DNA of 54,328 nucleotides, from positions 1-54,328 of the forward strand of contig JAJRWY010000016.1 of the NCBI GenBank assembly GCA_024276575.1, read 5' to 3'. Origin of the DNA: Candidatus Binatota bacterium. Lineage in GTDB: Bacteria; Desulfobacterota; Binatia; UBA1149; CAITLU01. The position numbers and the translations under genes are program-made. Of this stretch, positions 27,928 to 48,453 are shown piece after piece. The number at the start of each line of letters is the position of its first letter. Position 1 is the stretch's first letter. Under the pieces are notes generated by a model that ran no database searches, had not been told where the DNA came from, and saw only the letters and a list, made by a program, of their open reading frames with translations.

Positions 27928-28081
27928 GAGCCGGCATTCTTAATGAAGCCTCGTCTCGGGAGCCGCAAGCGCTTGCGAGATTGGCCCAAGCGCAGTGTTG
28001 AGGCGCGCCGGAGTTGCTGCCGCACTGTGGCTCCTAGGCGAGGACCATTCCTCCGGCAGCGCTTCATCCGGCAACGCTGTC
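27928..28081 (+). repeat. Family A element between two minus-strand genes
   Basis: The left end GCCGGCATTCTTAATGAAGC starts near 27929. The interior (TTGGCCCAAGCGCAG, then TGAGGCGCGCC) matches other copies. The right end (about 28058-28081, GCGCTTCATCCGGCAACGC) is degenerate and overlaps the last codons and stop of the PLP-enzyme gene. Confidence 0.65.
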
Positions 28082-29176
28082 CGGCAAGGTGCGATCGAGC
28101 GCTTGAACATTGCTTTCGAAATATACGTGAAAGCAGGCCGGTAGCCGGTGATAGTCGAGTTCTGAGGTCGATTCCGCAAGCGGCTGGGAATTGTAAGTGT
28201 TCCACAACAGGACGGATTTATTCGCAAGCACGCCTCTTGCGGCATCGCGCTCGAGCGCCGCCAAGGTCTTCCCGGTGTAGGTGCCGTCGAGGGTGACGCC
28301 CTCGAGGTCTTTCATTCGTCTAACCGCTGTCATCCCTTCCTCGGTGAAGTGAGCGTAGCCGGGGCCCAAGCAGTCGTCGATGATGTGGTAGCGATCCTTC
28401 GTAAGCGGTTTAAGTGGGAAGCCCGGATCGAGTTTCTCGAGTAGCCGCCCGGTTTGCCGGTAGAGGCGCCGAAGTTTCCTTTCGTTTACATACTTTGGCT
28501 CGGCGACCTGTACTGCGCAAAGCTCGGTCTTTGCTCCGAGGGCGTTTAGCCCGAGAAGGAGTCCGGCGGCGGTTCCCCCGCTGCCGAAAGCGACGTAGAT
28601 GAGGTCGGGAGCCGGTTGCCCCTCGAGCTGTCGTGCGAGTTCGAATGCGGCGCCTACGAAGCCGGTGCAGCCCAAGGGGGAAGAGCCCCCTGGAGGGATG
28701 AGCATCGGGGCCCCGCGTCTCGAAAGTATGCGGCGGCAGACTGTGGCGGCCGTTGCGGCTGCAATACCCGCCGCCGAGTTTCGTTGCTGCAGTTCGGCGC
28801 CCGCGTTCATGCTCGTCAGCAGATTGGGACCCACGTAGGCGGCGTTGGGTTGGGGCATCAACATCGAGATGCTGGACATCCCCAGCCGCCGCGCGAACAC
28901 CGCAGTGGCTGCCGCATGGTTGGATCCGGCGAATCCGAAGGTAAGTACCTCGCGTACTTTGCGGCGCCTAGCTTCTCCGAGGAGCAACTCGAGCTTACGA
29001 ACCTTATTGCCACCGTAGTCGGCGGAACTCAGCCCGTCGTTTTTCAAGTAAAGCGAGCCGACTCCGAGGAGCTTCCCGAGTTCTCGCAGTTCAACCAACG
29101 GGGTCGGGAAATCTCCCAAGCCGATGTACGGGAGTCCTCGCTCGATGAGGGGATAACGCTCGAACAGGGCTTGCAT
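28064..29176 (-). CDS. 1-aminocyclopropane-1-carboxylate deaminase / D-cysteine desulfhydrase family PLP enzyme
   Basis: This 370-residue fold-type II PLP enzyme has the opening DFPTPLVELRELGK, the lysine motif DYGGNKVRKLELLLG, a GFAGSNHAAATA phosphate/active-site loop, the VAFGSGGTAAGLLLG glycine loop, and GVTLDGTYTGKTLAAL near the end. Family members deaminate ACC or desulfurate D-cysteine, and residues separating these are not decisive here. I chose the ATG at 29176 because the upstream extension would overlap the neighbour. The last residues and the stop codon lie in a degenerate family A end, so the C-terminus may be altered. Confidence 0.88.
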   Translation of the reverse strand: MQALFERYPLIERGLPYIGLGDFPTPLVELRELGKLLGVGSLYLKNDGLSSADYGGNKVRKLELLLGEARRRKVREVLTFGFAGSNHAAATAVFARRLGMSSISMLMPQPNAAYVGPNLLTSMNAGAELQQRNSAAGIAAATAATVCRRILSRRGAPMLIPPGGSSPLGCTGFVGAAFELARQLEGQPAPDLIYVAFGSGGTAAGLLLGLNALGAKTELCAVQVAEPKYVNERKLRRLYRQTGRLLEKLDPGFPLKPLTKDRYHIIDDCLGPGYAHFTEEGMTAVRRMKDLEGVTLDGTYTGKTLAALERDAARGVLANKSVLLWNTYNSQPLAESTSELDYHRLPACFHVYFESNVQALDRTLPDSVAG

Positions 29177-29201
29177 CAAGCCGTAACTCGCAAGGGCCAA
29201 G

Positions 29202-29235
29202 CGGACTGGGCAGTCCGGCTGTCCCGGCGAGGGAC
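29202..29235 (-). other. Hairpins downstream of the secreted Cys-rich gene
   Basis: CGGACT-N4-AGTCCG (29202-29217) and GTCCC-N5-GGGAC (29220-29234) lie between the stop at 29244 and the next start at 29176. There is no T-run, so a Rho-independent terminator is possible but weak. Confidence 0.35.
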
Positions 29236-29243
29236 TCCCGCAC

Positions 29244-32200
29244 TCAGGGGACGAAAGTTGAACAGTCTGTTGATGGCCTGCCGCACTGAGTCTGCAAAGT
29301 CGAGCAATCGTCGGTCTTGGGTGCATAGACCCAATCTGCTATGCGGGTTGCGTTTTCGAAGCTGAAGTCGCTGTGGACCTTCTCCAGGTTGCGAAGATTG
29401 AGATCCTGGCGCCGTGCACCTGCCCATTTCACGACTGAAAGTGCGAGCGCAAGGTAACCCAAGGGCTTGGGATGTATGCCGTCCATGGTCAGAGTGCCGA
29501 GGCCGGCGTTGCCGGCGCGTGAGTTTTCGGAGTATACCGAACAGGTGTCGTCGTTCCAGGGAACGACATCTGCCTGCTCTGCGGCCGCAATCTCGGCCAG
29601 CACTTGGTTGTGGACGGAGTAGTTGCAAGCGTTCGTATATACGCGGCAGCCTCCGCGGTCTCCGGGCCCCTCGTCTAAAGGTGGCGTGGTTGCGACCGCG
29701 AAATTTGCGAAGGGAAGAACGGCTCGCGCCGACCGTAGTGTTTCCGTGACGCCGTCTTGAAAGCGGTGGTTACTCAGACGCAATGCGCGGCCCGCGTCGG
29801 AAAAGATCACCCAGTCGTAACTTTGGCCCTGCAAGGTGCCGCCTATTCTTCGCGCATAGCGTCCGTAGTGGGATCCACGACGGCCGAAGGCCGTAACCTC
29901 GAGCGATGCGTAGTCACAGTAGGTGTCTGCGAGGATATCGCGCGCTAAGTTGCCGTAGTGATAGCGGACCTTTCCGCCGGCGGTCAGGCTGTCCCCGTAA
30001 AAGAATACTCGGTCGTTAGGTTGCAGGCGCATGTCGAGAGGAGGTTTTAGAGCCGTGTCGCACAAGGATATGCACGACCCTGTGTCTAGAGTGCATGAGC
30101 CGGTGCAAGCCAGTTGCCCGTCGGTGAAGCCAAGCGAAACGCAACTTAGTCCGCCGAGGTCCGCGGCATCGCACTGCTCGACCGGGTCTTTGATGCCGTC
30201 ACTGCAGAAAGGCGGAACACATGTATTCCGGCAGCCGTCGAAATTGTCGGTGTTCCCGTCGTCGCACTCTTCTCCAAAATCGATCAACGCATTACCGCAA
30301 CGAGGAATTATACAGTCCCGGCGGCAGCCGTCGATATTATTGTCGTTTCCGTCGTCGCACTCTTCTCCCGGGTCGACGATGCCGTCGCCGCAACTCGGTA
30401 GCGTGCAGTCGTTGCGGCATGTGTCATTGTTGATCGAGTTCCCGTCGTCACAGGCATCGGCACTGTCGACCACGCCGTCACCGCATCTTGCTGTCGAGCA
30501 GTCGCTTCGACAAGCATCGGCGAGCACATCGCTGTTCGCGACTCCATCGTCACAGGCTTCTACGCCGGCGTAGACGAAGCCGTCTCCACAACTGGCTACC
30601 AAGCAGTTATTCAGGCAAGCGTCGAGATTCGACAAGTTTCCATCATCACAAGCTTCGCCGGGCTGAAGGATGCCATCGCCGCAGCGGGCGAGCGTGCAAT
30701 CGTTCCTACAATTGTCGGTGTCGATTGCGTTGCCGTCATCGCAGGCTTCACTAGAGTCCTTCACCCCGTCGCCGCATCTTGCGAGCGAGCAGTCACTTCG
30801 GCAGGCGTCGGCCAGGACGTCACTGTTTGCGGCTCCATTGTCACAAGCTTCGACGCCGGCTTGCACGAACCCGTCTCCGCAAGAAGCGTTAGTGCAAGTG
30901 TCGAGGCAAGCGTCTGTATTGTCGGCGTTCCCGTCGTCGCATTGCTCCACTCCGGCAAACACGAAACTGTCTCCGCATGATGCGAGGCTGCAGTTGCTCA
31001 AGCACGAGTCGGTCTCGATAGTGTTGCCGTCGTCGCAAGCCTCGCCCAGGCTTACGATACCGTCCCCGCAGGTGGGTAAGCCGCAGTCATTCCCACAGGC
31101 ATCGGTATCTATGTTGTTGCCGTCGTCACAGCTTTCTCCGGTGTCGACCACGCCGTCTCCACAGCGCGGAAGCGTGCAATCGCTTCTGCAGGTGTCGGCC
31201 GCTACATCACTGTTGGAGGTGCCCTGGTCGCATGCCTCTACGCCGCTTAGTAGGTAGCCATCTCCACAGGCCGCGAGTTTACAGTTTGATAGGCAGCTGT
31301 CGGTGTTGTCGGCGTTGCCGTCGTCGCATTCTTCGCCGACTTCCACCACCGCGTTGCCGCAGCCGCCGGCGATCGTGCAACTCGAGTTGGCGGTCCCGTC
31401 GTCGTAGACGTCGCAATCAGCCAGCACTGAGTTGGATTCGTTGACTATACGGCACATGCGGCAACGTACTTGCTGGGCGACGCACGTGGTCAGGTCCGCA
31501 CTGCCCGCGCAGAGTCCGGGGAACAAGGCATCGGTATCGAGTCCCAAACCGGTACACTTGAGTTCAATGGCTTGCGACAGCCGGCCCAAAGCCCACGCGA
31601 TGCGAGAATCCGTTTCCGGTTGCAGGCTCAACAGGCATGACTCTATGTCGCGCGCAGAAGTTACCGTGCCACGTCGCAGGCCGCCTTTCTTGCAGGTATA
31701 AAACTGCCGGAAACTGTTCTCCAGGAAGCGGTCATAAGCCGCTACGAAAGCTTCCTGGCATACTGCGTTTTTCTTGTCTTGGGTGATGGGGACGATGCTC
31801 GCTGCGATGTCGTTGCCGAAGAAGTCGGGAACCAGGGCGAGATCGTTGGAAATAGTGGCCGAATGCATGGCGGCCGCTCCCGCGTAACCAAAGGGCGGCG
31901 GTGTCGAACAATAACGAGCATCTTCGGCCGATGATCGCGACAACACCGACGCGATGCGTCCGTCGTTATCCGCAGTAAGGCACTGGTCGAGTGTTTGTCC
32001 GCTGATTAGGGAATCCCGCCGTGCTTGTCGCAGGCAGACACGTGAGTCGAAAAGCTGGGCTTTCAAAAGGGTGGCTTGGTTTCTATCAATTCTGACCAGA
32101 CAGCGCTGAGAATCGAAATCGACTGTGGCCGCGGCGGGGGCCGGCGGCAACGCCAGCGAAACGATAGAAATTATCGCTGCAGCCAGAGGCACTAGGCGCG

Positions 32201-32258
32201 CGGCGACGGATATCGAGTTGCCATCTAGAGCGGGTGTTGTCATGTTCTTTGCAAACAT
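29244..32258 (-). CDS. Secreted Cys-rich (DUF4215-type) repeat protein with C-terminal SGNH hydrolase domain
   Basis: This 1004-residue protein has a signal peptide (LVPLAAAIISIVSLALPPAP, residues about 23-45), a Cys-containing helical domain (about 47-275), a tandem array of 12 Myxococcus-type Cys-rich repeats plus one degenerate unit (about 290-705; unit CGDGxxxxGExCDDGNxxxxD, then CxxxC), and a C-terminal SGNH/GDSL domain (about 735-960) with block I VFFYGDSLTAGGK and block V TMDGIHPKPLGYLAL. It is probably exported, possibly surface-attached, with the repeats as a stalk presenting an esterase or deacetylase. It starts at the ATG at 32258, or at 32243. Confidence 0.88.
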   Translation of the reverse strand: MFAKNMTTPALDGNSISVAARLVPLAAAIISIVSLALPPAPAAATVDFDSQRCLVRIDRNQATLLKAQLFDSRVCLRQARRDSLISGQTLDQCLTADNDGRIASVLSRSSAEDARYCSTPPPFGYAGAAAMHSATISNDLALVPDFFGNDIAASIVPITQDKKNAVCQEAFVAAYDRFLENSFRQFYTCKKGGLRRGTVTSARDIESCLLSLQPETDSRIAWALGRLSQAIELKCTGLGLDTDALFPGLCAGSADLTTCVAQQVRCRMCRIVNESNSVLADCDVYDDGTANSSCTIAGGCGNAVVEVGEECDDGNADNTDSCLSNCKLAACGDGYLLSGVEACDQGTSNSDVAADTCRSDCTLPRCGDGVVDTGESCDDGNNIDTDACGNDCGLPTCGDGIVSLGEACDDGNTIETDSCLSNCSLASCGDSFVFAGVEQCDDGNADNTDACLDTCTNASCGDGFVQAGVEACDNGAANSDVLADACRSDCSLARCGDGVKDSSEACDDGNAIDTDNCRNDCTLARCGDGILQPGEACDDGNLSNLDACLNNCLVASCGDGFVYAGVEACDDGVANSDVLADACRSDCSTARCGDGVVDSADACDDGNSINNDTCRNDCTLPSCGDGIVDPGEECDDGNDNNIDGCRRDCIIPRCGNALIDFGEECDDGNTDNFDGCRNTCVPPFCSDGIKDPVEQCDAADLGGLSCVSLGFTDGQLACTGSCTLDTGSCISLCDTALKPPLDMRLQPNDRVFFYGDSLTAGGKVRYHYGNLARDILADTYCDYASLEVTAFGRRGSHYGRYARRIGGTLQGQSYDWVIFSDAGRALRLSNHRFQDGVTETLRSARAVLPFANFAVATTPPLDEGPGDRGGCRVYTNACNYSVHNQVLAEIAAAEQADVVPWNDDTCSVYSENSRAGNAGLGTLTMDGIHPKPLGYLALALSVVKWAGARRQDLNLRNLEKVHSDFSFENATRIADWVYAPKTDDCSTLQTQCGRPSTDCSTFVP

Positions 32259-34026: not shown

Positions 34027-34056
34027 TTCACAACTCGGACTTTTCGAATCTATACT
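34027..34056 (+). promoter_or_regulatory. Likely promoter of the GTPase operon
   Basis: TTCACA (34027-34032), an 18-bp spacer and TATACT (34051-34056) each match the sigma-70 hexamers at 5 of 6 positions. The predicted leader of about 90 nt contains a 9-bp stem with one bulge (CGTTGA...TCAACG, about 34065-34100) and a small reading frame starting at the ATG at 34140. Confidence 0.55.
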
Positions 34057-34152: not shown

Positions 34153-35073
34153 ATGCATACGGTTATGGGCACCCGGCCGATTGAACCACTAGAGATTCCA
34201 GTTTCGGCGGCTGACGACGAGGCGATGGAGGCGGCGCTTGCTGACCTCGACGCCAAGCTGTCCGCTTGGAGTGAGGCGTTGCTCAGCGCGCGCGAAGCGC
34301 AGGCTCGAGAGCAGGCTGCGCGTGTGGAATCCGTTGCCCAATCGACGAGGGCTACTCGTCCCCCCACGGCTGGCCAGTCTTCGGGAGTTTCGAGGGGAAG
34401 GGCCCCGGCGGATAAGGCCGCAAGCCGTTCCGCAGTCTCACGCAGCCCGGGCCAGGACTCCGGGCCGAGTGTTTCTGCCGCTACGGGCGGGGCCGTGGAT
34501 CCCCCAGTTTCCTCATCTGACAACGGCTTTACTCAGGGGCAGGGGTCGCTCGGCGATGGTGAGATTGATTTTCTTGCGATGGCGTGGCCGGGGACTGTCG
34601 CCGAAGAGGACGCTGACAGCGGCCCAGCCTCCGGGGATGCTGGGGTTCCGGCTCCTGCCGGTGCTTCGCAGTCCGCAGCGCCCACTACGTCTGTGGGTGG
34701 CGGCACATCCTCCTCTTCCACAGGTGTGCTGCGTGAGCGGGCCGGCCGTAAGCGTTCCGCAGTACTCAAGGCGAGACGGCGCGTAGAGCCGGAGGTTGAA
34801 AACCAAAGCGAGGTTGGACAGCACGAGGCCGATGTGACGGACCAGGGGGTGGGGGTTCCCGACAATGCTCTTGCCAAAGATAGAGCGGCGCAGGAACTAA
34901 GCGAGCAGGAGGACTTGCTCGCGGATATGGATGAGGAGGTTGTGAAGAGAGTTCGCATCGCCAGGCGCTTCGATCCGTCGGCGGATTTGAAGGAGCTTAT
35001 CGAAAAAACCCAGGCCAAGGCTTCGCCCGACCGGACGGAGAAGGGCACTTGGTGGCGGAGAAAGAGAAAATGA
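34153..35073 (+). CDS. Low-complexity protein, first gene of the GTPase operon
   Basis: This 306-residue protein matches no family I recognise. Residues about 20-60 form a helical, probably coiled-coil segment (MEAALADLDAKLSAWSEALL). Residues about 65-220 are a Ser/Ala/Pro/Gly-rich disordered region. The C-terminal part is charged and helical (QEDLLADMDEEVVKRVRIAR, then DPSADLKELIEKTQAKA) and ends WWRRKRK. There is no signal peptide. The ATG follows GGAGATCCTGC. Its stop overlaps the next start (ATGA). It may be a scaffold or adaptor for the kinase/phosphatase/GTPase set; this is inferred from position only. Confidence 0.75.
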   Translation: MHTVMGTRPIEPLEIPVSAADDEAMEAALADLDAKLSAWSEALLSAREAQAREQAARVESVAQSTRATRPPTAGQSSGVSRGRAPADKAASRSAVSRSPGQDSGPSVSAATGGAVDPPVSSSDNGFTQGQGSLGDGEIDFLAMAWPGTVAEEDADSGPASGDAGVPAPAGASQSAAPTTSVGGGTSSSSTGVLRERAGRKRSAVLKARRRVEPEVENQSEVGQHEADVTDQGVGVPDNALAKDRAAQELSEQEDLLADMDEEVVKRVRIARRFDPSADLKELIEKTQAKASPDRTEKGTWWRRKRK

Positions 35074-36140
35074 GCGAACAAGCGATGCAGGTAGACAGTA
35101 GCGGGATGGGTGCGGCCGATATAAACGCGGATCCCGCAGTCGAGGTGGTCGGGGAGGACGTTCTCGCTAGCATTCAAGAGGTACGCGAGATGCTGCGGGC
35201 GCGAAGCGAGGCTCTGGAAGCCTGCCGCGTGGCCTTGGCCGAGCAATCGGCCGAGCTGGCGCGACAGCAGCAAGCGTTCGCGGCCGAACAAAACGAATTC
35301 TGCGACGAGTTCGACCGGCGGGAATCGAGTCTTGCCGAACGCGAGCAGCGCGCCGGTGAACTCGCGGCCGAACTCGAGGAAAAGGCCCATCGCTGTGAAG
35401 CTGACCTACAGGAGCTTCGCAAGCAGCAACAAGAAATTGCCACTGCGCTAGAGGCCTCCGATAGGCGCCATGCGGAACTCGATAAGCGGGCCTCCGACGT
35501 GGAGGATCGCGAAGCGCGGCTTGCTGAGAAGACTCGAGGTTTCGAAGATCTGGTGAACGGTGCTGAGAAGGCTCGTGCCGAGGTCGAGTCAGCGCGAGCG
35601 GAGCTGGCTGAGTCGAACGAGCGCCTCGAGCGAGAAAGGGGTGAATGGGAGGCCGAGAAGGCCGAGTTCGCCTCGATGCGGCAGCACTTCGAGAGTGAGC
35701 GTGAACGTTTCGAGCGAGAGAAGGCGGAGTTGACTGCTCAACTCGACAGCGAGCGCGAGCAACTTCGGGAACGTGAACGTGTTCTCGGGGAGCAAGCGGA
35801 GACGCTCGAGCGGCGACAACTCGAACTCGAGCAGCGGATGGCCGATCATGCGCGCGAGCGGCAGGAATGGGAGTTGAGGATCAACGCCTTCAATTCGGCG
35901 GGGCGCCAGTTGGCCGACCTGCGCACCCGGCTGGCCGATGAGGTCGGGACCATCGCTGCCGAGAAAAGCGACCTGCTCGAACGCTACGGCCTTAGTGAAA
36001 AAGATCTCGCCGCCGGCCGGCCGGCCAATGGGAATGTCCCCCTGGTTGACACGACCGCGGCTCCCCAAGTACAGGGGGCGGTGGAACGCTTCCAAAAACT
36101 GCGCAGGGACGCCAAGCGGCGCGCGATGGGCGCGCGTTGA
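35070..36140 (+). CDS. Long coiled-coil protein of the GTPase operon
   Basis: This 356-residue protein is almost entirely heptad-like and Glu/Arg/Ala-rich from about residue 35 to 300 (for example EREQRAGELAAELEEKAHRC and ERERFEREKAELTAQLDSER). It ends with a shorter conserved-looking tail (DLRTRLADEVGTIAAEKSDL, then a basic AMGAR end). No membrane segment or catalytic motif is present. The ATG (35070) overlaps the previous stop; a TTG at 35049 is less likely because GGAGAAAGAGAAA precedes the ATG. Probably a rod-like scaffold or oligomerisation protein. Such low-complexity sequence gives little family information. Confidence 0.8.
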   Translation: MSEQAMQVDSSGMGAADINADPAVEVVGEDVLASIQEVREMLRARSEALEACRVALAEQSAELARQQQAFAAEQNEFCDEFDRRESSLAEREQRAGELAAELEEKAHRCEADLQELRKQQQEIATALEASDRRHAELDKRASDVEDREARLAEKTRGFEDLVNGAEKARAEVESARAELAESNERLERERGEWEAEKAEFASMRQHFESERERFEREKAELTAQLDSEREQLRERERVLGEQAETLERRQLELEQRMADHARERQEWELRINAFNSAGRQLADLRTRLADEVGTIAAEKSDLLERYGLSEKDLAAGRPANGNVPLVDTTAAPQVQGAVERFQKLRRDAKRRAMGAR

Positions 36141-36214
36141 GGATTCGGGCCGAGTCCGGGCGCGCCCCGGAGTGTTAGACGGCGGCTACTTACCGCTGAT
36201 CGAGGAATGACCCC

Positions 36215-37162
36215 ATGGGCTTGAATCTGTTTCGCCGCAAGCAAGAACGCGGCGCTGGTGAGCCGCTAAAGATCGATGCCGATCCGCTTTTGGCTTGCCT
36301 TCAGCAAGGGCGCTATGGACTGGTAGCTTCTCAGCCGGATCCCTGGCGTGACAATCCGAATTTCGAAGAGGTCTACGCAGGAATTCTCGACAAGATCGAT
36401 GAGGCCTTCGCACTGGTTCCGGAGGGGTATGTGTCGATGCCGCGAACGGTCACCGACTACCCCGGCTGTCCGGAAATCGATGTAGAAACGGAGCCATTCC
36501 TCCTCTCGCGCACTTTGATTACCAACGCACAGTTCCAACTCTTCGTCGACGGTGGAGGCTACGAACAGCTCGATTTCTGGCCCGAGGAGATCTGGCCCCA
36601 TCTGGTTGCCTTCAAGGATCAAACGGAATTCCCGGGGCCACGCTACTGGAGCAACGGCCGTTACGATCCGGCCTTGGCTCAGCACCCGGTGGTAGGGGTG
36701 TGCTTTTACGAGGCCTTGGCTTACGCGAATTGGGCGGGATTTCGTCTACCAACGGAGGCCGAATGGCAGATGGCTGCGAGTTGGCGGATTCGCAGTTCGT
36801 CGAGCATGTACCGGCGCTATCCTTGGGGTGAATCTTTTGATGCGGCCCGGTGCAACACCTGGGCGAGCGGTATTGGCTCTACCGTGGAGGTCGGTTCCTA
36901 CGAGAATGGAGCGGCGCCTAACGGGGTCATTCAGTTGATCGGCAATGTTTGGGAATGGACGGCTTCTAACTTCGAGGTCGTCGACGATGAAGGGCGGCCG
37001 GTGGTCGGAGATACTGCCATGAAGAGCGTGCGTGGCGGATCGTTCGATACTTACTTTGCGGCCCAGGCTACCAGCGATTTTCGCACCGGAGTGTGTAGTC
37101 TGTCGCGGCCACGCAATGCAGGGTTCCGCTGTGCTTTGGATGTCGGTTCGGTTGATGGTTGA
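36215..37162 (+). CDS. SUMF1/formylglycine-generating-enzyme-fold protein, probably non-catalytic
   Basis: This 315-residue protein has a charged N-terminal segment (about 1-70) and a SUMF1/FGE-sulfatase domain with the family signatures FLLSRTLITNAQFQLFV, GVCFYEALAYANWAG, FRLPTEAEWQMAA, YPWGESFDAARCN, IGNVWEWTAS, VRGGSF and NAGFRCALD. Catalytic FGEs carry a Cys pair shortly after GGS; here that segment (TYFAAQATSDFRTG) has none, so it is more likely a binding module, as in many bacterial signalling operons. GAGGAA lies 8 nt before the ATG. It probably acts within the GTPase/kinase system. Confidence 0.9.
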   Translation: MGLNLFRRKQERGAGEPLKIDADPLLACLQQGRYGLVASQPDPWRDNPNFEEVYAGILDKIDEAFALVPEGYVSMPRTVTDYPGCPEIDVETEPFLLSRTLITNAQFQLFVDGGGYEQLDFWPEEIWPHLVAFKDQTEFPGPRYWSNGRYDPALAQHPVVGVCFYEALAYANWAGFRLPTEAEWQMAASWRIRSSSSMYRRYPWGESFDAARCNTWASGIGSTVEVGSYENGAAPNGVIQLIGNVWEWTASNFEVVDDEGRPVVGDTAMKSVRGGSFDTYFAAQATSDFRTGVCSLSRPRNAGFRCALDVGSVDG

Positions 37163-37216
37163 TGCACCGCGCTTTGTTCCAAGTGGCAGTGAGGTGCTTG
37201 CCGGGGAGTACAGACG

Positions 37217-38107
37217 ATGACTTTGTGGGTTGAGGACGAACTCGTCGATTGCATGATATGCGAAGCGCCCAATCCGGCGGAAGCGATCCTTTGCGGTAAG
37301 TGTTCGGCCCCGATGGCTCTGGTGCATGATACCGCTGAAGAGAACCGCGAACCGCGAATTATCAGCGTGGTCGGCGAGAGCAACGTCGGCAAGACGGTAT
37401 ATCTGGGTTTTCTTCTCGATATGCTTTCACGCTGTGCGAAGGATTTCGAAGCTGTGCCGAAGGGCCCGTATTCCATCGACCTTCAACAGAATGTGGTTTC
37501 TTACATGAGCAACCGCATGTTCCCGCCAAAAACGCCGATGGAGCCGAATCAATGGTATTGGGCTTACTACAAGACCCGGCGTAAACGGCGCAAATCCAAA
37601 TGGGTGGACCTGGTTATGCCGGACATGGCAGGCGAGGCCTTGGCGGCAGAGGTGGCCACTCCTCAAACATTCACCGTCATCCGTAATCTTCTCAATAAGT
37701 CAGCGGGGACTTTGATGCTGGTCGATGCCGGGTTGGCGGCCAATGGCGCTTCCCGGCCGGACTTTTTTGCGCTGAAAATGCTCAGTTATATAGATGCGAT
37801 GCACTCCAACAATGGCGAGCAGCGGTTGCGAAAGCCGATCGGCGTAGTTTTGTGTAAATCGGACTTTTGTCCGGAATCGTTCGATGATCCACAACGTTTC
37901 GTCGAGGCGAATTTGAATCGTTTGTGGAACTTGTGTCAGAGCCGTTTCGCGAACGTCCGGTTTTTTGCTTGTAGTGCGGTAGGATCTTTGGCCTACGCAA
38001 CTTCCGGCGGTGCCGGTTCCGACAGAGACTATGTTCAGCCTATTCCGCTGCACACGGCCTTGCACGGAATAATGGAGCCGTTCGAGTGGATTATCGACCA
38101 AATCTGA
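37217..38107 (+). CDS. Zinc-ribbon P-loop GTPase (TRAFAC type, DO-GTPase2-like)
   Basis: This 296-residue protein has an N-terminal four-Cys zinc ribbon (CMIC at residues 12-15, CGKC at 26-29) and a GTPase domain: G1 GESNVGKT (53-60), a G3-like DxxG in LVMPDMAGEAL and G4 LCKSD. The G1/G4 set places it with TRAFAC-like GTPases; from memory it resembles the DO-GTPase2 group that accompanies GAP1 proteins. No membrane segment. GGGGAG lies 9 nt before the ATG. The gene for a GAP1-like partner begins at its 3' end, so GTP-driven switching or assembly of the whole operon product set is the likely role. Confidence 0.85.
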   Translation: MTLWVEDELVDCMICEAPNPAEAILCGKCSAPMALVHDTAEENREPRIISVVGESNVGKTVYLGFLLDMLSRCAKDFEAVPKGPYSIDLQQNVVSYMSNRMFPPKTPMEPNQWYWAYYKTRRKRRKSKWVDLVMPDMAGEALAAEVATPQTFTVIRNLLNKSAGTLMLVDAGLAANGASRPDFFALKMLSYIDAMHSNNGEQRLRKPIGVVLCKSDFCPESFDDPQRFVEANLNRLWNLCQSRFANVRFFACSAVGSLAYATSGGAGSDRDYVQPIPLHTALHGIMEPFEWIIDQI

Positions 38108-38142
38108 GCGAATCCCGTACGGTTGCCGCCGGAGAAACCTTG

Positions 38143-39228
38143 GTGCAGGCCGAACAGGCGGTGTTTACCTCGGTGCGCTCTCCCACCGGAGAGGGCTATC
38201 GTATCATCGCCGCCAGTAACGGCGTGCGCGCTGAGGAGAAAGTGGAGATTACCCGCCGCTCTCCTTCGCACGGGAGCCTGGACGATGAGAGCGCCGCGGC
38301 TTTCGGTTTATCGTCTTACCGCTTGGAGAGTGGGCGTTACTGTGTGGCATCGTCGCGATATGCGGGGACGGAGCATACCGCACGCGGCGGCGGGCGGGTA
38401 TATACTCACATAGCAGTCCTCGACGAAGATTCCTTTGTCCGTTTCTTGTGTAATCCTTTTCGTATTTCGGCGGCCGTGGAGGCGCAGAGCGACGGGAACC
38501 CATTGCTGAAGCCTGCTACCGAGCTTGAACCGCTGCACCTCAGCTTCGGCTGGCCTTCGGGTGTCGAGGCGGTCAACGATCCGGCAGACGCCGGGATGGA
38601 TCCGGGGTTCGACGGGATAAGGCGGCTCGTTACGTCTCTCATGGAGCGCAAGCGTTTGGTGGTCGTGGCCGAGCGCAACCGTCTTGCGCTTCTCGAGTGG
38701 AGCCTGTTGTGCTTGCCGATGTTCATCCGCAAGAGGGTTGCGGTCTCTGTCGGACTGAACTTTTCTCCGTCGAGAGAATTCGATGTGACAGTTTTGCCCG
38801 CAAGGGACGTCGGCACGAACCGTGCTATCCGTGGCCATCAGACCGAATGGCTGGACCTGGGCGCTCCGGCCACAGATGCCGATCACTCGGAGGATCCTTG
38901 GTTGCAGCTTCTCGGCGAATGGTGGAAGGCCCGGCGGTTTTCTGAAATCCGCAGTCTTTCGTCGCGGCTCTCTTTACCCGTAGACCGCTCCGCGCTGGGC
39001 CGCATTGCGCATCTATGTTGGGAGTTGGACCGTATCGACGAGGCTTCCGAAGACGAACTGGAGTCTATTCTGGTCCGGCATGCAGGCACTGCCGGCCGCA
39101 ATGATGTCGAAGACGCCCTGCTCGGACAGATCATCGAACTCTCGCGTTGCCGGCTCGCGGCGCTTGATGCGGGGGCTGTTGCCGGGAGCGTTAGTTCTCA
39201 GCGCAACGGGTCCTCGTCTTCGGGTTGA
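38143..39228 (+). CDS. GTPase-associated protein 1 (GAP1-N1-like)
   Basis: This protein of about 361 residues opens with VQAEQAVFTSVRSPTGEGYR and IIAASNGV, continues with YTHIAVLDEDSFVRFLCNPF and then LLEWSLLCLPMFIRKRVAVS and FDVTVLPARD. This is the pattern I remember for the GAP1-N1 domain of GTPase-associated proteins in predicted bacterial conflict systems. The C-terminal 120 residues are helical and less distinctive. I prefer the GTG at 38143 because GGAG lies 8 nt upstream and the domain starts there; a GTG at 38086 would overlap the GTPase gene by 22 bp. It probably binds or regulates the GTPase encoded just upstream. Confidence 0.75.
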   Translation: MQAEQAVFTSVRSPTGEGYRIIAASNGVRAEEKVEITRRSPSHGSLDDESAAAFGLSSYRLESGRYCVASSRYAGTEHTARGGGRVYTHIAVLDEDSFVRFLCNPFRISAAVEAQSDGNPLLKPATELEPLHLSFGWPSGVEAVNDPADAGMDPGFDGIRRLVTSLMERKRLVVVAERNRLALLEWSLLCLPMFIRKRVAVSVGLNFSPSREFDVTVLPARDVGTNRAIRGHQTEWLDLGAPATDADHSEDPWLQLLGEWWKARRFSEIRSLSSRLSLPVDRSALGRIAHLCWELDRIDEASEDELESILVRHAGTAGRNDVEDALLGQIIELSRCRLAALDAGAVAGSVSSQRNGSSSSG

Positions 39229-39250
39229 CGTTTGAGCTGCAGTTAGATCC

Positions 39251-40093
39251 GTGGCCTCGAATGCCGGCGAATTCAGGTTGGACGAGCCGCGGCTCTTTAT
39301 GGCACAGCGAATGGCATCGCCGCTGGCAGTGGCTTTTGCCGGCGGGATAGCGGTAGTGTTTTCAACGCCGAGTCCTGCCAAATCGACCGGGAACGAGGAC
39401 TCCGCGGGTCTGATCCCGACTGCAGAGAATTGCGGAGTCATAGCGGTGGCCGACGGCCTTGGTGGGCGTTCGGGTGGCGCCAGAGCGTCCGCTGCGGCTA
39501 TCCGCTGCCTACAAGACTCGCTCGGTGGGCAACGGCGTGGTCTGCGTGAGGCTGTTCTCGACGGTTTCGAAAACGCCGACCGGGAGATCTCAGCGTTCGG
39601 GATAGGAGCCGCTACGACTGTGGCTGCAGTGACGGTCGTAGGCACTACGGTGCGGCCCTACCACGCCGGCGATTCGATGGTGTTAGTGGTGGGCTCGCAG
39701 GGTAAGTTGAAACTACGGACGCTGTCGCATGCGCCCGTGTCCTACGCGATGGAGTCGGGGTTGATAGACGAACTGCGGGCTCTGCGGCATCCGGAACGGC
39801 ACTTGGTCTCCAATGTGGTGGGCGGCGGCGACATGCGCATAGAAATTGGGGCACCTCTCGAATTGGCGCCGCGTGATACGGTTTTGTTGGCAACCGACGG
39901 ACTGTTCGATAATTTTGAATGCGGGGAGATTGCCGACCTAGTGCGTAGCGGCCCTTTAGACGAGGTTGCCGGCAACTTGGCGTCGCTCAGCGCCGAGCGA
40001 ATGTCGCTGAGGGAAAGCGGCGGGCTTTCGAAACCGGACGATCTGACGTTCGTGCTGTTCAGGGCCGGTCCCAAGGCTGCCACTGAACAATGA
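39251..40093 (+). CDS. PP2C-family serine/threonine phosphatase
   Basis: This 280-residue protein has the PP2C metal and phosphate motifs in order: TGNEDSAG, VIAVADGLGGRSGG, a GIGAATTVAAV strand, YHAGDSMVLVV, LLATDGLFDNFE and KPDDLTFVLF, so it is predicted to be active on phospho-Ser/Thr. It probably reverses phosphorylation by the kinase encoded next, with which it overlaps by 4 bp. The start is a GTG at 39251 with a weak ribosome binding site; the ATG at 39299 is an alternative that still keeps all motifs. Confidence 0.92.
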   Translation: MASNAGEFRLDEPRLFMAQRMASPLAVAFAGGIAVVFSTPSPAKSTGNEDSAGLIPTAENCGVIAVADGLGGRSGGARASAAAIRCLQDSLGGQRRGLREAVLDGFENADREISAFGIGAATTVAAVTVVGTTVRPYHAGDSMVLVVGSQGKLKLRTLSHAPVSYAMESGLIDELRALRHPERHLVSNVVGGGDMRIEIGAPLELAPRDTVLLATDGLFDNFECGEIADLVRSGPLDEVAGNLASLSAERMSLRESGGLSKPDDLTFVLFRAGPKAATEQ

Positions 40094-40854
40094 GTCACGG
40101 TCTCGCTGGGGGAACTGTGATGGCGAGGAGAGTGAGAGTGGCTGACATTGAAAGCTTCAACCTGAAACCGGGACGCAGGCTTGCGCGTAAGTACGTCGTG
40201 GGTGAACTGCTCGGGCGGGGTTGGGAGGGGGAAGTTTACCATGTCGTCGAGGAAGGGACCGGCGTTGAGCGTGCTGCGAAATTTTTCTTCCCGCAGCGTA
40301 ACCCGGGCAACAAGACTTTCAACTTCTATGCACGAAAGTTGGACAAACTTCGCGGCTGTTCGATCCTGATCCAATACCACACGCAGGAGACCTTCCGGCA
40401 CAAGGGTATGGACATCCCATTCATGGTCAGTGAGTACGTCGACGGGGAATTGCTCAGTGAGTTTCTGCAGAGGCAGAGGGGGCGGCGGCTTCATCCTTTC
40501 GAAGCCATGCATCTGCTGTACTCTTTGGCTGAGGGCGTCGAAGAGATACATCGGATGCGCGAGTACCATGGAGATTTGCACTCCGAGAATATAATTGTTC
40601 GCCGCCGTGGTATCGGCTTCCAGGTCAAGCTCGTCGATATGTACCATTGGGGTAGGCCGACGTCGGAGCATTTCAAGGACGACGTGTGCGCGCTGGTCCG
40701 TTGCTTTTACGATGCCGTCGGGGGAGCCGCCCGCTACGCCAAGCAAACGCCGGAAGTCAAGTATATATGCTGCGGCTTGAAACGGTCGCTGATCACCAAG
40801 AAATTCCGCTCCGTGACCGCGCTCAGAGAGCACTTGGAGCGGTTTCGCTGGTAA
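40090..40854 (+). CDS. Atypical Ser/Thr protein kinase
   Basis: This compact kinase of up to 254 residues has a glycine loop (LLGRGWEGEVYHV), the ATP-contact lysine in VERAAKFFFP, the catalytic loop YHGDLHSENIIV (HGD instead of HRD) and KLVDMYHWG where DFG is expected (Asp kept, then Met-Tyr). Lys, catalytic Asp, Asn and metal Asp are all present, so it may be active. There is no membrane segment or sensor domain. The ATG overlaps the phosphatase stop; the ATG at 40120, preceded by GGGGGAA, may be the real start. It ends the seven-gene operon. Confidence 0.88.
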   Translation: MSHGLAGGTVMARRVRVADIESFNLKPGRRLARKYVVGELLGRGWEGEVYHVVEEGTGVERAAKFFFPQRNPGNKTFNFYARKLDKLRGCSILIQYHTQETFRHKGMDIPFMVSEYVDGELLSEFLQRQRGRRLHPFEAMHLLYSLAEGVEEIHRMREYHGDLHSENIIVRRRGIGFQVKLVDMYHWGRPTSEHFKDDVCALVRCFYDAVGGAARYAKQTPEVKYICCGLKRSLITKKFRSVTALREHLERFRW

Positions 40855-41019: not shown

Positions 41020-42834
41020 TCAGCGCCGGATCACGAAGATGCCTATGTCGGCGTTGAGATTGGGGTCCTCCGTAATCTTGCGCCCCTCCTTGGTATTTAG
41101 GTACAAAGCTCCTTCTATTGCGATGCCTTCGGCGGTACACAGTTCTTGGAAGTCGCGGATCGACGGGAAGCGCCGGTTCGGCGTGTTATGCCATTCGTAG
41201 GAGTAGCCCCCCTCCTGTTTCGGTAACCGGCCTTCGCGGTAGAACATCTCCCGCAGAGGTTTGAATGCGAAGTTCGGGAAACTCACGATTCCCCGGTTGC
41301 CGACCCGGGTGATCTCGCGAAGAGTACCCGAGACGTCTTCTATCGACTGCAGAGTCTGTGACAGAATCACAGTGTCGAAGTGTTTATCATTGAAGGCCGC
41401 CAGCCCCTTGTCGATGTCGAAATGGATTACGGGAAGGCCGCGTGCGATGCACGCCACGACCGCCTTCTCGTCAAGTTCGACACCCATGACCGAGGTGCTA
41501 CCGCGTTCGACCAGGCGGGACATGAGTTCGCCGTTGCCGCATCCAAGGTCCAGGACGCTCGCCCCCTGAGGGACCAGTTTCATTATGATCTCATAGTCGA
41601 GGCGATCTTCGTTGAAGATGCTGGTCGGGCCGTAGCTTCGCTGTTCGGCACATAGATCTTCAGGAGCCGAAGCTTCTCCCGAAACGATGCCGAGAAAGGA
41701 AGCGATCATGGCACCGTAGGAGTCGATGTCGTCCTCGAGTAAGAAACTGTCGTGGCCGCAGTTGGTCTCGACGTTGCAATAGCTGAGCGGTTTGCCTTCG
41801 GCGATCAGTGCATCCACCAAGTCGCGGCTTTGCGACGGGGGGTAGAGCCAGTCGCTGCTGAAGCTGATCAGCAGCCACGCGCAGGTACTGGGAGCCAAGG
41901 CTTTCCGGAGTTTCTCGGGGCTGTCCCCGAAATCGAAAAGATCCATGGCCGTGGATAGCGTAACGTAGCTGTTGGCGTCGAAGCGGTCGACGAACTTGTG
42001 GCCTTGGTGGGCGAGGTATGATCCTACCGAGAACTTTTTCTCGAAGGCGGTAGCGATGTCGCGAGGTTGGTATCGCGTGAGGTTGAATTTTTCCTCCATC
42101 GATTCGACCGAGAGATAGGTTATATGAGCCAGCATACGTGCTATTGCCAAGCCAACCTCAGGCTTGTCTTTGCCGTAGTATTGGCCGTCGGAGAAGAAGG
42201 GGTCGCGGATTATCGCGTTGCGGCCAACGACGTCGAAAGCCAGTGCCTGGTTGGTCAGGCGGGGAGAAGTCGCCAGAGCTATACATCCGGCTACCCGGTC
42301 GGGATGCTTCGTAGCCCACTCCAAGGTTTGAAATCCGCCCAGCGACCCGCCCACCACTGCCAACAGGCGATCGATGCCGAGATGATCGATGAGCTTCGCT
42401 TGAGCCGCAACCATGTCGCCGACGGTTACCACCGGGAAGTCGGCTCCGTAGGGGCGCCCGGTTCCGGGATCCGTAAAATTCGGTCCGGTGCTTCCGCGGC
42501 AGCCGCCGATAACATTGGAGCAGATTACGAAATAGCGGTTGGTGTCTATGGCCCGGCCTGGTCCGACTACGCAATCCCACCATCCGGGCGAGTCCCCGTC
42601 ATCGTGCCTTGCGACATGCGAGTCTCCGCTTATGGCGTGGCAGATAAGTACCGCGTTGTCCCGGGCCGCGTTCAGTTTTCCATAGCTTTCGTAAGCGATG
42701 GTGAGTTGCTCGAGAACGCCGCCGGCTTCCAACTCCACCGGGCGGTCGAGAAGCAAGGTCTGCAGGTGTCGCAGGGGTTCGGCCGAACGCACCGAATCCG
42801 AACTTACGAATTCATTGCCATCGCTTGCTGTCAC
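41020..42834 (-). CDS. metXW: MetX-MetW fusion: homoserine O-acyltransferase plus MetW methyltransferase-like domain
   Basis: Residues about 20-390 are MetX, an alpha/beta-fold homoserine O-acetyl- or succinyltransferase: nucleophile in VVGGSLGGFQTLEW, FSSDWLYPPSQS (Asp) and NCGHDSFLLE (His). Residues about 405-600 are MetW, a SAM-methyltransferase-fold protein (SVLDLGCGNGELMSRLVE, VELDEKAVVACIARG, VSFPNFAFKPLREMFYREGR, YEWHNTPNRRFPSIRDFQ). metX and metW are usually separate adjacent genes, and MetW supports MetX activity; here they are one polypeptide. metY lies 51 bp upstream, so both are probably one operon making homocysteine for MetH. Confidence 0.93.
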   Translation of the reverse strand: MTASDGNEFVSSDSVRSAEPLRHLQTLLLDRPVELEAGGVLEQLTIAYESYGKLNAARDNAVLICHAISGDSHVARHDDGDSPGWWDCVVGPGRAIDTNRYFVICSNVIGGCRGSTGPNFTDPGTGRPYGADFPVVTVGDMVAAQAKLIDHLGIDRLLAVVGGSLGGFQTLEWATKHPDRVAGCIALATSPRLTNQALAFDVVGRNAIIRDPFFSDGQYYGKDKPEVGLAIARMLAHITYLSVESMEEKFNLTRYQPRDIATAFEKKFSVGSYLAHQGHKFVDRFDANSYVTLSTAMDLFDFGDSPEKLRKALAPSTCAWLLISFSSDWLYPPSQSRDLVDALIAEGKPLSYCNVETNCGHDSFLLEDDIDSYGAMIASFLGIVSGEASAPEDLCAEQRSYGPTSIFNEDRLDYEIIMKLVPQGASVLDLGCGNGELMSRLVERGSTSVMGVELDEKAVVACIARGLPVIHFDIDKGLAAFNDKHFDTVILSQTLQSIEDVSGTLREITRVGNRGIVSFPNFAFKPLREMFYREGRLPKQEGGYSYEWHNTPNRRFPSIRDFQELCTAEGIAIEGALYLNTKEGRKITEDPNLNADIGIFVIRR

Positions 42835-42885: not shown

Positions 42886-44196
42886 TCACGAAGCGACCGC
42901 GGCCCGCAGTGCTTGGTCGAGATCCGCGACGATATCGCGGACGTCCTCTATGCCGACCGACACCCGGATAAACTCGGGGAAAACTCCGGTTTGTTGCTGT
43001 TCTTCGACGGATAGCTGCGAGTGTGTTGTTGAGGCCGGGTGAATGACCAGAGTCTTGGCGTCTCCGATATTGGCGAGATGGCTCGCTAGGCGGACACTTT
43101 CGATGAACTTTCTACCGGCCTTTTCTCCGCCCTTGATGCCGAATCCCAGTATTGCTCCGCAACCGTTGGGCAGGTAGCGCAAAGCGCGTTGGTAGTCTTT
43201 GTGGTCGGGCAGGCCCGGATAGTTGACCCATTCGACCGCTGAGTGGTCACGCAAGAACTCCGCAATTTCCATCGCATTCTCGCAGTGGCGTGCCATACGT
43301 AGGTGCAAAGTCTCGACGCCCAGCAAGGTAAGGAAACTCGCGAAGGGGCTCATTGCCGCCCCGGTATCGCGCAACCAGTTGGTTCTGATGTGAAGTATGT
43401 AGGCAATGTTGCCCACGGGTCTCAACGCTTCTTCGAACACCATGCCATGGTAGGAAGGGCAGGGTGCGCAAAACTCCGGCCATTTCTCCGGCTGTGCCGC
43501 CCACGGGAACTTCCCACTGTCCACTATGACGCCGCCTAAATGGGTGCCGTGCCCGCCTAGGAACTTCGTGGTGGAATGGATGACGATGTCGACACCATGT
43601 TCGATCGGCCTCAGCAACATCGGCGTCATTACGGTGTTGTCACACAAGGCGGGCAGTCCAAGCGAGTGAGCGGCTTTGGTGATGGCGGCAAAGTCGGGGA
43701 CATCGTTCTTCGGGTTGCCGATGCTTTCGAAGTAGACACATCGAGTGTTTTCATCGGCGAGCTCGGCGATCTGCTCCGGCTTGTCCATGTCGAAGAAACG
43801 CACCTCGATGCCGAGGTTCTTGAAAGTCTGAGAGAACAAGGTCCAAGTGCCACCGTAGAGGCTCGTCGAAGAGATGAAGTTTTGACCGGAGTGGCAGATG
43901 GTGAGAATCGCTGCGGTTATCGCTGACTGTCCCGATGCAAAGGAAAGAGCGGCGGCGCCCCCGTCCATAGCTGCCAGGCGTTTCTCCAAGACGTCGTTGG
44001 TCGGGTTCATCAACCGCGTGTAGATATTGCCGAACTCCGACAAGGCAAAAAGGCTGGCTGCATGATCGGTGTCGTTGAAGACGTAGGAAGTGGTGGCATA
44101 AATCGGTACGGCGCGGGCGTTAGTTGCCGGGTCGGGTTGTTGGCCGGCGTGGAGCGCCATGGTCGCGAGAGATTGCGTTTTCGATTCCTCACTCAT
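42886..44196 (-). CDS. metY: O-acetylhomoserine sulfhydrylase (MetY)
   Basis: This 436-residue PLP enzyme of the Cys/Met-metabolism family has the OAH sulfhydrylase layout: LHAGQQPDPATNARAVPIYA at the start, YTRLMNPTNDVLEKRLAAMD, the PLP lysine in VIHSTTKFLGGHGTHLGG, and PASTTHSQLSVEEQQQTGVF near the end. It condenses O-acyl-homoserine with sulfide to homocysteine, directly following the MetX reaction. GGAG lies 10 nt upstream of the ATG, and a small AGCCT...AGGCT hairpin (44216-44231) lies just before it. Confidence 0.95.
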   Translation of the reverse strand: MSEESKTQSLATMALHAGQQPDPATNARAVPIYATTSYVFNDTDHAASLFALSEFGNIYTRLMNPTNDVLEKRLAAMDGGAAALSFASGQSAITAAILTICHSGQNFISSTSLYGGTWTLFSQTFKNLGIEVRFFDMDKPEQIAELADENTRCVYFESIGNPKNDVPDFAAITKAAHSLGLPALCDNTVMTPMLLRPIEHGVDIVIHSTTKFLGGHGTHLGGVIVDSGKFPWAAQPEKWPEFCAPCPSYHGMVFEEALRPVGNIAYILHIRTNWLRDTGAAMSPFASFLTLLGVETLHLRMARHCENAMEIAEFLRDHSAVEWVNYPGLPDHKDYQRALRYLPNGCGAILGFGIKGGEKAGRKFIESVRLASHLANIGDAKTLVIHPASTTHSQLSVEEQQQTGVFPEFIRVSVGIEDVRDIVADLDQALRAAVAS

Positions 44197-44567: not shown

Positions 44568-44587
44568 GACCGCCAACGCTCGCGGTC
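44568..44587 (-). terminator. Hairpin directly after the SDR stop codon
   Basis: GACCGC-N8-GCGGTC begins at the last base of the SDR stop codon (minus strand). No T-run follows, so termination would need Rho or the structure itself. Confidence 0.4.
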
Positions 44588-45336
44588 TAGGCGTGAGTGC
44601 CACCGTCCACCCTTATGTATTCCCCGTTGATATGGGATCCGTCTTCGGATGCAAGCATCGCGATGACCCCGGCTACATGCTCAGGGCCGGCCATGCCGTT
44701 GGGTGGGGTCACCCGGTCGAGCAGCTTCAGGTCCCCGCCTTCGGGCAAGCGGAACTCGCCGAGCATCGGGGTTGCGACTCCTCCAGGACACACCGCATTG
44801 GCGCGCAAGCCCTGCTTGGCGTAGTCGACTGCGATGTTGTAGGTGAGCGCCAGCACCCCTCCTTTCGAGGCGGCGTATGCGCCGGCCCACGGCTGTCCGG
44901 CCAGTGCCGCAATGGATGCGACGTTGACGATGTTACCCTTGCTTTGCAGCAGGTGGGGGATCGACTCCCGGCAGGTAAGGAAAGTGCCGGTCAGGTTTAC
45001 CGAAAGGACCCGGTTCCAGTCCGCAAGCGAAATCTCGTGTGTGTGATCGAAGCGCAGAATGCCCGCAACGTTGCACAGCACGTCGAGTTTGCCGAAGCGG
45101 TCCAGGCAGGCCTGAATCGCCGCTATCACCGCACTTTCGTCGCTAATGTCGCAACGAAGTGTTTCCACGCAGGCACCCGTGCCGCTCAGCTCGGCCCGAA
45201 GTTCATCCAACGCTTGTTCTTGCAGGTCCAAGCACATGATAGAGGCACCCTCGGAGGCCAGTCTTTGGGCCGCCGCTTTGCCGATGCCGGAGGCTGCGCC
45301 TGTGACGACCGCGACCTTGTTTTCGAAACGCTGCAT
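44587..45336 (-). CDS. SDR-family NAD(P)-dependent oxidoreductase
   Basis: This 249-residue classical short-chain dehydrogenase has the cofactor motif VVTGAASGIGKAA (residues 9-21), LDLQEQALDEL (acidic residue, suggesting NAD preference), NVAGI near 90, the catalytic Ser in NIVNVASIAAL and YAASKGGVLALTYNIA with Tyr and Lys. The C-terminus ends INGEYIRVDGGTHA, common in 3-oxoacyl-ACP-reductase-like SDRs. Substrate unknown. It is transcribed away from the glycyl-radical operon, sharing a 446-bp upstream region with it, so a common pathway is possible but not shown. Confidence 0.92.
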   Translation of the reverse strand: MQRFENKVAVVTGAASGIGKAAAQRLASEGASIMCLDLQEQALDELRAELSGTGACVETLRCDISDESAVIAAIQACLDRFGKLDVLCNVAGILRFDHTHEISLADWNRVLSVNLTGTFLTCRESIPHLLQSKGNIVNVASIAALAGQPWAGAYAASKGGVLALTYNIAVDYAKQGLRANAVCPGGVATPMLGEFRLPEGGDLKLLDRVTPPNGMAGPEHVAGVIAMLASEDGSHINGEYIRVDGGTHA

Positions 45337-45405
45337 ATCGGTATCTCCTTGATCGTTTCTTCACGGTCCGACAGGGCGGAAGGGTTACAACCTATCGCCC
45401 TGGAC

Positions 45406-45609
45406 CGAACCTGGATTACTCATGAAAGCCCGTCGCGGCAGCGCCAAGCGTACTCCGGGCTCGCACGCATGCAGCAATGAGACCCGTAGGCCTGATATGC
45501 GCTACGGCTAGGGCCGAGGATAGCGTGACGTGAGCCGGCGAGCGGCGAACGCCCCGAGATAGCATGCGATCGGCGATCGTTGCGGAACTCTTCATGAAAA
45601 ATCCAGGCC
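45406..45609 (+). repeat. Family A element, long copy
   Basis: The left end ACCTGGATTACTCATGAAAG and the right end (CGGAACTCTTCATGAAAAAT, then CCAGGCC) are inverted repeats. The interior contains GAGACCCGTAGGCC and CTACGGCTAGGGCCGA, related to copy 1. At about 205 bp it is the longest copy, in the divergent region between the SDR and the glycyl-radical enzyme. Confidence 0.7.
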
Positions 45610-45668
45610 AAGTTTACTCGCGGTTGAAGACTTATTGCGCGGGCGCGCATTACACGCAATCTCCAGTC

Positions 45669-45697
45669 TTGCACCGCCCTGCAATAGGGCGTATTCG
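45669..45697 (+). promoter_or_regulatory. Candidate promoter with palindrome in the spacer, glycyl-radical operon
   Basis: TTGCAC (45669-45674) and TATTCG (45692-45697) are separated by exactly 17 bp, and that spacer is the perfect inverted repeat CGCCCT-GCAAT-AGGGCG. The gene start is 86 bp further on. A repressor or MerR-like regulator bound in the spacer is a plausible inference; the hexamers are only moderate matches. Confidence 0.45.
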
Positions 45698-45782
45698 AGT
45701 AGTCTGGGTTCATCGGAATTCGCCGGAATTCACCCAATTCAGCGGCATTGCCACCCCGGCGGCGCCGCGGGAGAGAAAGCCT

Positions 45783-48302: not shown

Positions 48303-48435
48303 GCGGCATTGCCCATGAAGAGTTCTGCTACGACCGCCGATTGCACGACATCCCGGGGCCTCGTCGCTGCGCTCGTTCGGAGCTGAAGTGCACGCGGCGT
48401 TTCCACCACGAACTTTCGTGAATATTCTAGGCTAG
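48299..48435 (-). repeat. Family A element between the glycyl-radical enzyme and its activase
   Basis: It begins at the glycyl-radical enzyme stop codon (CTAAGCGGCATTGCCCATGA) and ends with ACTTTCGTGAATATTCTAGG. The left end has the CTGCTACGA signature that is at the right end of other copies, so it is inverted. It forms nearly the whole 151-bp gap between two genes that must work together. Confidence 0.75.
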
Positions 48436-48453
48436 AGACGGAGCAGGCGGCAA

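Follow-up and report, generated by a model that had tools for sequence, protein, structure and literature searches.

A conserved five-gene GTPase/GAP1-N2 core in Candidatus Binatota and Planctomycetota, with a predicted DENN-like GAP1 protein

Seven genes, among them genes for a GTPase, a GTPase-associated protein (GAP1), a phosphatase and a kinase, follow one another at positions 34153-40854 of contig JAJRWY010000016.1 from a Candidatus Binatota bacterium (assembly GCA_024276575.1), and they raise the question of which of them form a system and what that system might do. The window analysed here is the whole stretch from 1 to 54,328 of the forward strand. All seven open reading frames (ORFs; g1 to g7) are found where a preliminary description of this DNA had placed them; they and the features within them lie on the + strand, and neighbouring genes overlap slightly or are separated by short gaps. 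That description took the seven for one operon, a candidate undescribed signalling or defence system. We find that the conserved unit consists of five genes, g1 to g5, and not of seven. These five genes may encode a self-contained GTPase switch, cytosolic and membrane-peripheral, which would be turned off by a DENN-like GTPase-activating protein (GAP). We give this reading a probability of about one in two.

The core has a fixed order of low-complexity protein (g1), coiled-coil protein (g2), FGE-fold protein (g3), zinc-ribbon DO-GTPase (g4) and GAP1 (g5), and none of the 43 non-redundant loci, which come from the bacterial family of the window and from Planctomycetota, chiefly Phycisphaerae, departs from this order. 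Relatives were collected by scanning 84,980 species genomes with an alignment of the GTPase, as a DNA-pattern search with GAP1 alone recovered none because that protein is too divergent. Of the 39 loci that the scan returned, 36 lie outside the family; almost all of these were deposited as Planctomycetota, mostly Phycisphaerae. Every sufficiently long scan locus carries the coiled-coil, FGE-fold, GTPase and GAP1 genes; across the 43 loci a g2 homologue is present in 42, and g1 is found upstream of g2 in 31. All-versus-all clustering of the neighbourhoods gave just five widely conserved families and no sixth conserved neighbour, the remaining clusters being either shadow ORFs or small sets of closely related members. 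The five-gene core recurs, and at none of the other 42 loci do the seven genes stand together. One contig deposited as Alphaproteobacteria (L021) carries a Phycisphaerae-type locus very near L022 in the tree, and is probably mislabelled.

Within the window's family, g1 to g5 are retained in identical order in 7/7 genomes, with the GTPase at 63-71% identity in the other six, and the GTPase is found in 0/111 other relatives. Among 395 genomes of the phylum it occurs in this family alone, the fourth match (E 5e-4) being a 48-residue fragment. The Phycisphaerae-type class yields it in 62 of 347 sampled genomes, always as a single copy and nearly always at E <1e-115, and the core is single-copy in all 12 genomes checked. 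In a tree of the GTPase and the FGE-fold protein the window's family forms one clade with 100% ultrafast bootstrap, which with midpoint rooting falls inside the planctomycete sequences. This pattern is consistent with one horizontal transfer into the family, followed by vertical descent.

Conservation within the core is highest for g4 (37217..38107; 296 aa; 55-71% identity), which matches both DO-GTPase families (PF19975/PF19993; DO-GTPase1 2.6e-12 and DO-GTPase2 3.8e-9, at 47.1 and 37 bits against a cut-off of 27). Its AlphaFold model matches GTPases of the EngB/Rab/Ras type, so that on this model g4 is a Ras-like zinc-ribbon GTPase. The motifs on which the preliminary description had based its GTPase call proved invariant or nearly so in relatives: the G1/P-loop GESNVGKT (residues 53-60; 37373..37396) reads GDSNVGKT in two family members, and G4 reads CKSD or CKAD. 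The cysteines of a single N-terminal Cys4 ribbon (C12, C15, C26, C29) are conserved to the same degree. Glu140 of the DMAGE motif (37634..37636) is invariant in 18 sequences; it is the Walker B glutamate and occupies the place of Gln61 of Ras. A conserved Walker B glutamate is the defining feature of the DO-GTPases (Kaur et al., 2020, PMC7159879).

The gene that follows, g5 (38086..39228; 380 aa), overlaps g4 by 22 nucleotides, an arrangement that recurs in many core loci. The GAP1 start given here is a putative one, because the start codon at the overlap arises from conserved Glu-Trp codons of the GTPase. Assignment of g5 to the GAP1 proteins holds, whereas its earlier placement as GAP1-N1 does not: the Pfam match is to GAP1-N2 (PF20013, 1.5e-13; 51.4 bits against a cut-off of 24), and GAP1-N2 is matched by all 21 relatives. 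An AlphaFold model of the protein (21 sequences; predicted local distance difference test score 87.7, predicted template modelling score 0.85) has three parts. Its N-terminal part has its elements arranged b-b-a-b-b-b-a-a, as in a longin domain, and is followed by an alpha/beta part and then an all-alpha part; Pfam GAP1-M reaches only 0.036, in 2 of 21 relatives, and a GAP1-M search of the window's own genome returned none. A like succession, of longin domain, alpha/beta three-layer sandwich and all-alpha d-DENN, makes up the DENN module (PMC3521125). Foldseek comparison of the model with the PDB gave as its four best hits, in this order, the FLCN-FNIP2 complex, DENND1B, a DENND10 complex and the active FLCN GAP complex (E 4.6e-4 to 2.2e-3, probability 0.82-0.96); TagF came fifth, and the GATOR1/KICSTOR and SEAC complexes lower. 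We therefore predict a longin-DENN-like fold for GAP1.

A second likeness concerns a single residue. Arg100 (38383..38385) lies between beta4 (85-95) and beta5 (103-112) of the model and is conserved in at least 95% of 38 core GAP1 proteins, in 21/21 sequences of set A3, and in 30/30 GAP1-N2 sequences fetched with PF20013, including the canonical ones of 780-925 residues; it was not seen in the one GAP1-N1 sequence examined (L107). A 2026 preprint on Avl9 takes as the mark of DENN GAPs an arginine finger located after beta4 and before beta5 in the longin subdomain (PMC12803157), and such a finger can be seen in action in the structure of C9orf72-SMCR8 (PMC8213707). If the predicted fold is right, Arg100 has the position that the Avl9 class calls for and is a candidate arginine finger. 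This agreement was not fitted, as the invariant residues had been listed before the Avl9 definition was read. On the predicted model, GAP1 would share with the eukaryotic DENN GAPs and GEFs (guanine nucleotide exchange factors; FLCN-FNIP2, DENND1B, Avl9, C9orf72-SMCR8) the order of longin, alpha/beta and all-alpha parts, the arginine of the longin loop and, we infer, action on a Ras-like GTPase, here encoded next door. GAP1 would be the dedicated regulator of g4, most likely a DENN-like GAP.

Several points weigh against this assignment. Foldseek TM-scores are only 0.2-0.3, the root-mean-square deviation is high and the best E-value is only 4.6e-4; TM-scores this low imply that the domain arrangement of the bacterial protein differs from that of the eukaryotic DENN structures. 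Among 21 GAP1 members, Pfam returned no DENN or longin match at E up to 5, and a PDB profile search with GAP1 returned no DENN match. Homology to DENN by sequence is rejected on these grounds, and the likeness of fold is structural only. A viral structure library gave no significant match to GAP1, with a longin-type synaptobrevin second at E 0.02. TagF of the type VI secretion system, which goes with PppA and PpkA, also resembles GAP1 by its Foldseek rank, and PP2C and kinase genes adjoin GAP1 in the window; however, hhalign comparison of GAP1 with four clean TagF ORFs detected no similarity, and no TagF match was found in the window's genome. GAP1 evolves fast (28-42% identity), as a component of a conflict system also would. 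We found no experiments on any GAP1 protein in the literature.

In human cells, DENN proteins control the GTPase switches of membrane traffic, and the classical DENN proteins are GEFs for Rabs. As DENN modules also act as GEFs, a GAP is not the sole option, and GAP1 might instead promote nucleotide exchange on the DO-GTPase. Such a role would agree with the second rank and highest Foldseek probability (0.96) of DENND1B, a Rab GEF. The invariant beta4-beta5 arginine, by contrast, accords with the rule for DENN GAPs, and we regard exchange activity as possible, on the unlikely side.

If GAP1 is a DENN-like GAP, the remaining core proteins suggest how the switch could be arranged. Upstream of the GTPase lie g1 (34153..35073; 306 aa), for which Pfam gives no family at its curated cut-off, and g2 (35070..36140; 356 aa), whose ATG at 35070 forms an ATGA overlap with g1 and whose matches are confined to coiled coils of the SMC/Rad50 type. 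A conserved helix-like stretch opens g1, and its conserved C-terminal ~55 aa end in a Trp-basic tail, TWWRRKRK; a W[WF]-basic tail occurs in 25/31 g1 sequences, and we consider g1 a candidate membrane-peripheral adaptor. The coiled-coil protein ends in a conserved basic motif, RFQKLRRDAKRRAxG. None of the five core proteins contains a hydrophobic stretch suggesting a membrane helix. We propose that GTP-bound g4 would engage g1 and g2, the first with its disordered linker and tail and the second with its long coiled coil and basic tail, and would organise them into a scaffold or readout, probably at the membrane surface, near which the Trp-basic tail of g1 could keep the complex. The FGE-fold protein g3 would sense or recruit as a binding partner. 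GAP1 would then switch g4 off, with Arg100 completing the GTPase's active site, in which Glu140 replaces the Ras glutamine. The system would serve as a switch in cell organisation or stress rather than in phage defence with a killer effector.

To our knowledge, the longin-DENN module is regarded as a eukaryotic invention. A broader claim, which we put forward tentatively, is that GAP1-N2 proteins in general are bacterial GAPs of the DENN type, each working at bacterial membranes together with a coiled-coil scaffold and a Ras-like GTPase of its own; if this were true, the logic of Rab/Arf, DENN and tether would exist in bacteria such as planctomycetes, and could have originated there. Operons with DO-GTPases and GAP1 are widespread. 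Were GAP1 a DENN-like regulator that uses an arginine finger, the 'GTPase-associated protein' would gain a testable enzymatic function across the GAP1-N2 family, and there would be a prokaryotic candidate for where DENN modules came from. The invariant, effector-free five-gene version is the simplest form in which the idea of a DENN-like GAP can be tested. We found no paper on a prokaryotic DENN module in the open literature, with most subscription journals lying outside that search. Neither longin nor DENN is mentioned in the description of the GAP1-N2 systems (PMC7159879), and no reports of a DENN-like GAP1, or of loss of the FGE cysteines in g3, were found in the literature.

How, then, does the core relate to known systems? 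The description of the locus as undescribed has to be withdrawn in part of its content, since DO-GTPase/GAP1-N2 systems, and FGE-type domains in some planctomycete ones, were reported in 2020 (Kaur et al., 2020, PMC7159879). With these systems the core shares a zinc-ribbon DO-GTPase with Walker B glutamate and a GAP1-N2 gene downstream of it. In contrast to them, it is a fixed five-gene cytosolic set without an FNIII protein, transmembrane segments or a variable effector; g4 has a single zinc ribbon, whereas N2 systems usually have two; the GAP1-M domain of the core GAP1 is not recognised by Pfam; and the core is also present in a non-planctomycete bacterial family. Pfam detected no FNIII match in g1 to g7. 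Because FNIII repeats and variable effectors, which usually accompany the published systems, are absent, we class the core as a variant of the DO-GTPase/GAP1-N2 systems. What is added here is the compact five-gene form with its fixed content, the second bacterial lineage, the DENN-like prediction and the finding that the FGE cysteines have been lost. Locus L108 (1217-11611) holds, in addition, a canonical GAP1-N2 operon from a planctomycete, encoding an FHA and DO-GTPase-like protein, a transmembrane GAP1-N2 protein and an ExbB/TolQ-like protein.

Membership of this family brings with it the proposal, made for all DO-GTPase/GAP1 operons, of a bacterial conflict (anti-phage) system, in which the FGE-fold protein or the coiled coil would sense or act as effector and the GTPase would set a threshold. 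The FGE fold does figure among the effectors given for planctomycete GAP1-N2 systems (PMC7159879), and both the fast evolution of GAP1 and the one inferred horizontal transfer would suit such a role. Against it stand the lack of a variable effector or FNIII component, gene content that is constant in all 43 loci, the single copy and the vertical retention in 7/7 family genomes. PADLOC returned few matches in 165 flanking ORFs, a count for which there is no background rate to compare; it had no match for g3 to g5, while g2, g6 and g7 matched generic coiled-coil, PP2C and kinase models. The preliminary description had already observed that the seven-gene stretch contains no nuclease or pore effector, and this is borne out. 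The defence role that it proposed is weakly supported, and we judge it unlikely.

The FGE-fold protein itself, g3 (36215..37162; 315 aa; PF03781, 9.7e-39), has sequence matches to EgtB (4x8b, 1.2e-25), human SUMF2 (1y4j, 8.5e-18) and FGE (6muj, 1.6e-16). It has the fold of SUMF2 and bacterial FGE/EgtB in common with these proteins, but lacks the FGE cysteine pair and bears a signature of its own, DTYFxxQA. None of 43 g3 sequences has a cysteine at positions 282 and 287, which from the alignment register and prior knowledge of SUMF1 we take to be the two FGE cysteine sites, and catalysis of the FGE type is accordingly rejected. The region where these cysteines would sit (residues 278-290; 37046..37084) instead reads DTYFxxQAxxxFR, with D278, T279, Y280, F281, Q284, A285, F289 and R290 invariant in 43/43. 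From the missing cysteines and this signature, g3 is predicted to be a non-catalytic binding module. Its very strong conservation, which extends to invariant C213 and H157 besides D278-F281 and Q284, could also point to an enzyme of a new kind, neither FGE nor EgtB, that modifies g1, g2 or GAP1; with the FGE cysteines gone, and with the FGE domain alone recognised by Pfam and no iron-binding N-terminal EgtB domain, we think this improbable.

The last two of the seven genes are neighbours outside the conserved core. The PP2C phosphatase gene g6 (39251..40093; PP2C_2, 1.5e-9) starts 22 bp after g5 on the same strand, and its ATGA overlap joins it to the Ser/Thr kinase gene g7 (40090..40854; Pkinase, 2.4e-13). 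Pfam thus bears out both calls, along with the SUMF1-fold and GTPase ones. The kinase is probably active, as it retains the glycine loop GRGWEGEV and the HGDLHSEN and DMY motifs. A related PP2C or kinase stands beside 0/42 other core loci, the six other family genomes included. Homologues of the kinase (56-70% identity) and of the PP2C (41-51%) are also carried by core-less families elsewhere in the order, where they lie amid unrelated genes, adjacent to each other with either one first, or separated. A related pair, conserved as a module of two genes with either one leading, is seen at L057 6924-8481, L064 8931-10488 and L065 7713-9309, which belong to other families of this order. In a sister genome (G002, locus L008) the core is flanked on both sides by homologues of the window's flanking genes, namely those of 28064-29326 upstream and short-chain dehydrogenase/reductase (SDR) and pyruvate formate-lyase (PFL)-like genes downstream; no PP2C or kinase gene lies between the core and the downstream flank, and the genome's copies are on other contigs. 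It follows that the pair was either gained beside the core in the lineage of the window or lost from that place in the sister. The best reading of these sequence comparisons is that g6 and g7 are an independent regulatory pair, chance or recent neighbours of the core, with which they may be co-transcribed; they would not be needed for the core system and would be dispensable in any reconstitution of it.

A true seven-gene system, in which the kinase and PP2C would phosphorylate and dephosphorylate core proteins and so gate the GTPase, could appeal to the spacing and shared strand of the genes and to the actinobacterial GAP1-N2 theme of kinase, PP2C and vWA beside GTPase and GAP1 (PMC7159879), but the pairing is confined to one genome, has no vWA gene and is missing from the syntenic place in the sister, so that we reject the unity of the seven genes and find this the least probable of the alternatives. 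The earlier suggestion that phosphorylation controls GTPase-driven assembly likewise has no comparative support.

Upstream of g1, a weak sigma-70-like promoter match lies at 34027..34056 (+), in a search whose number of matches was not above that in shuffles. Further upstream, 29244-32258 (-) encodes a long, cysteine-rich protein that carries DUF4215 repeats and ends in a GDSL-lipase domain. Downstream of the seven genes, 44587-49479 holds the SDR gene, the PFL-like glycyl radical enzyme (45564-48302) and a radical SAM activase (48454-49479), the SDR/PFL pair being the one that also follows the core in the sister genome. Between these and g7, a MetX-like acetyltransferase (alpha/beta hydrolase) and MetW are fused in a single ORF of 604 aa (41020-42834, -), adjoined by a gene of the O-acetylhomoserine sulfhydrylase type (42886-44196).

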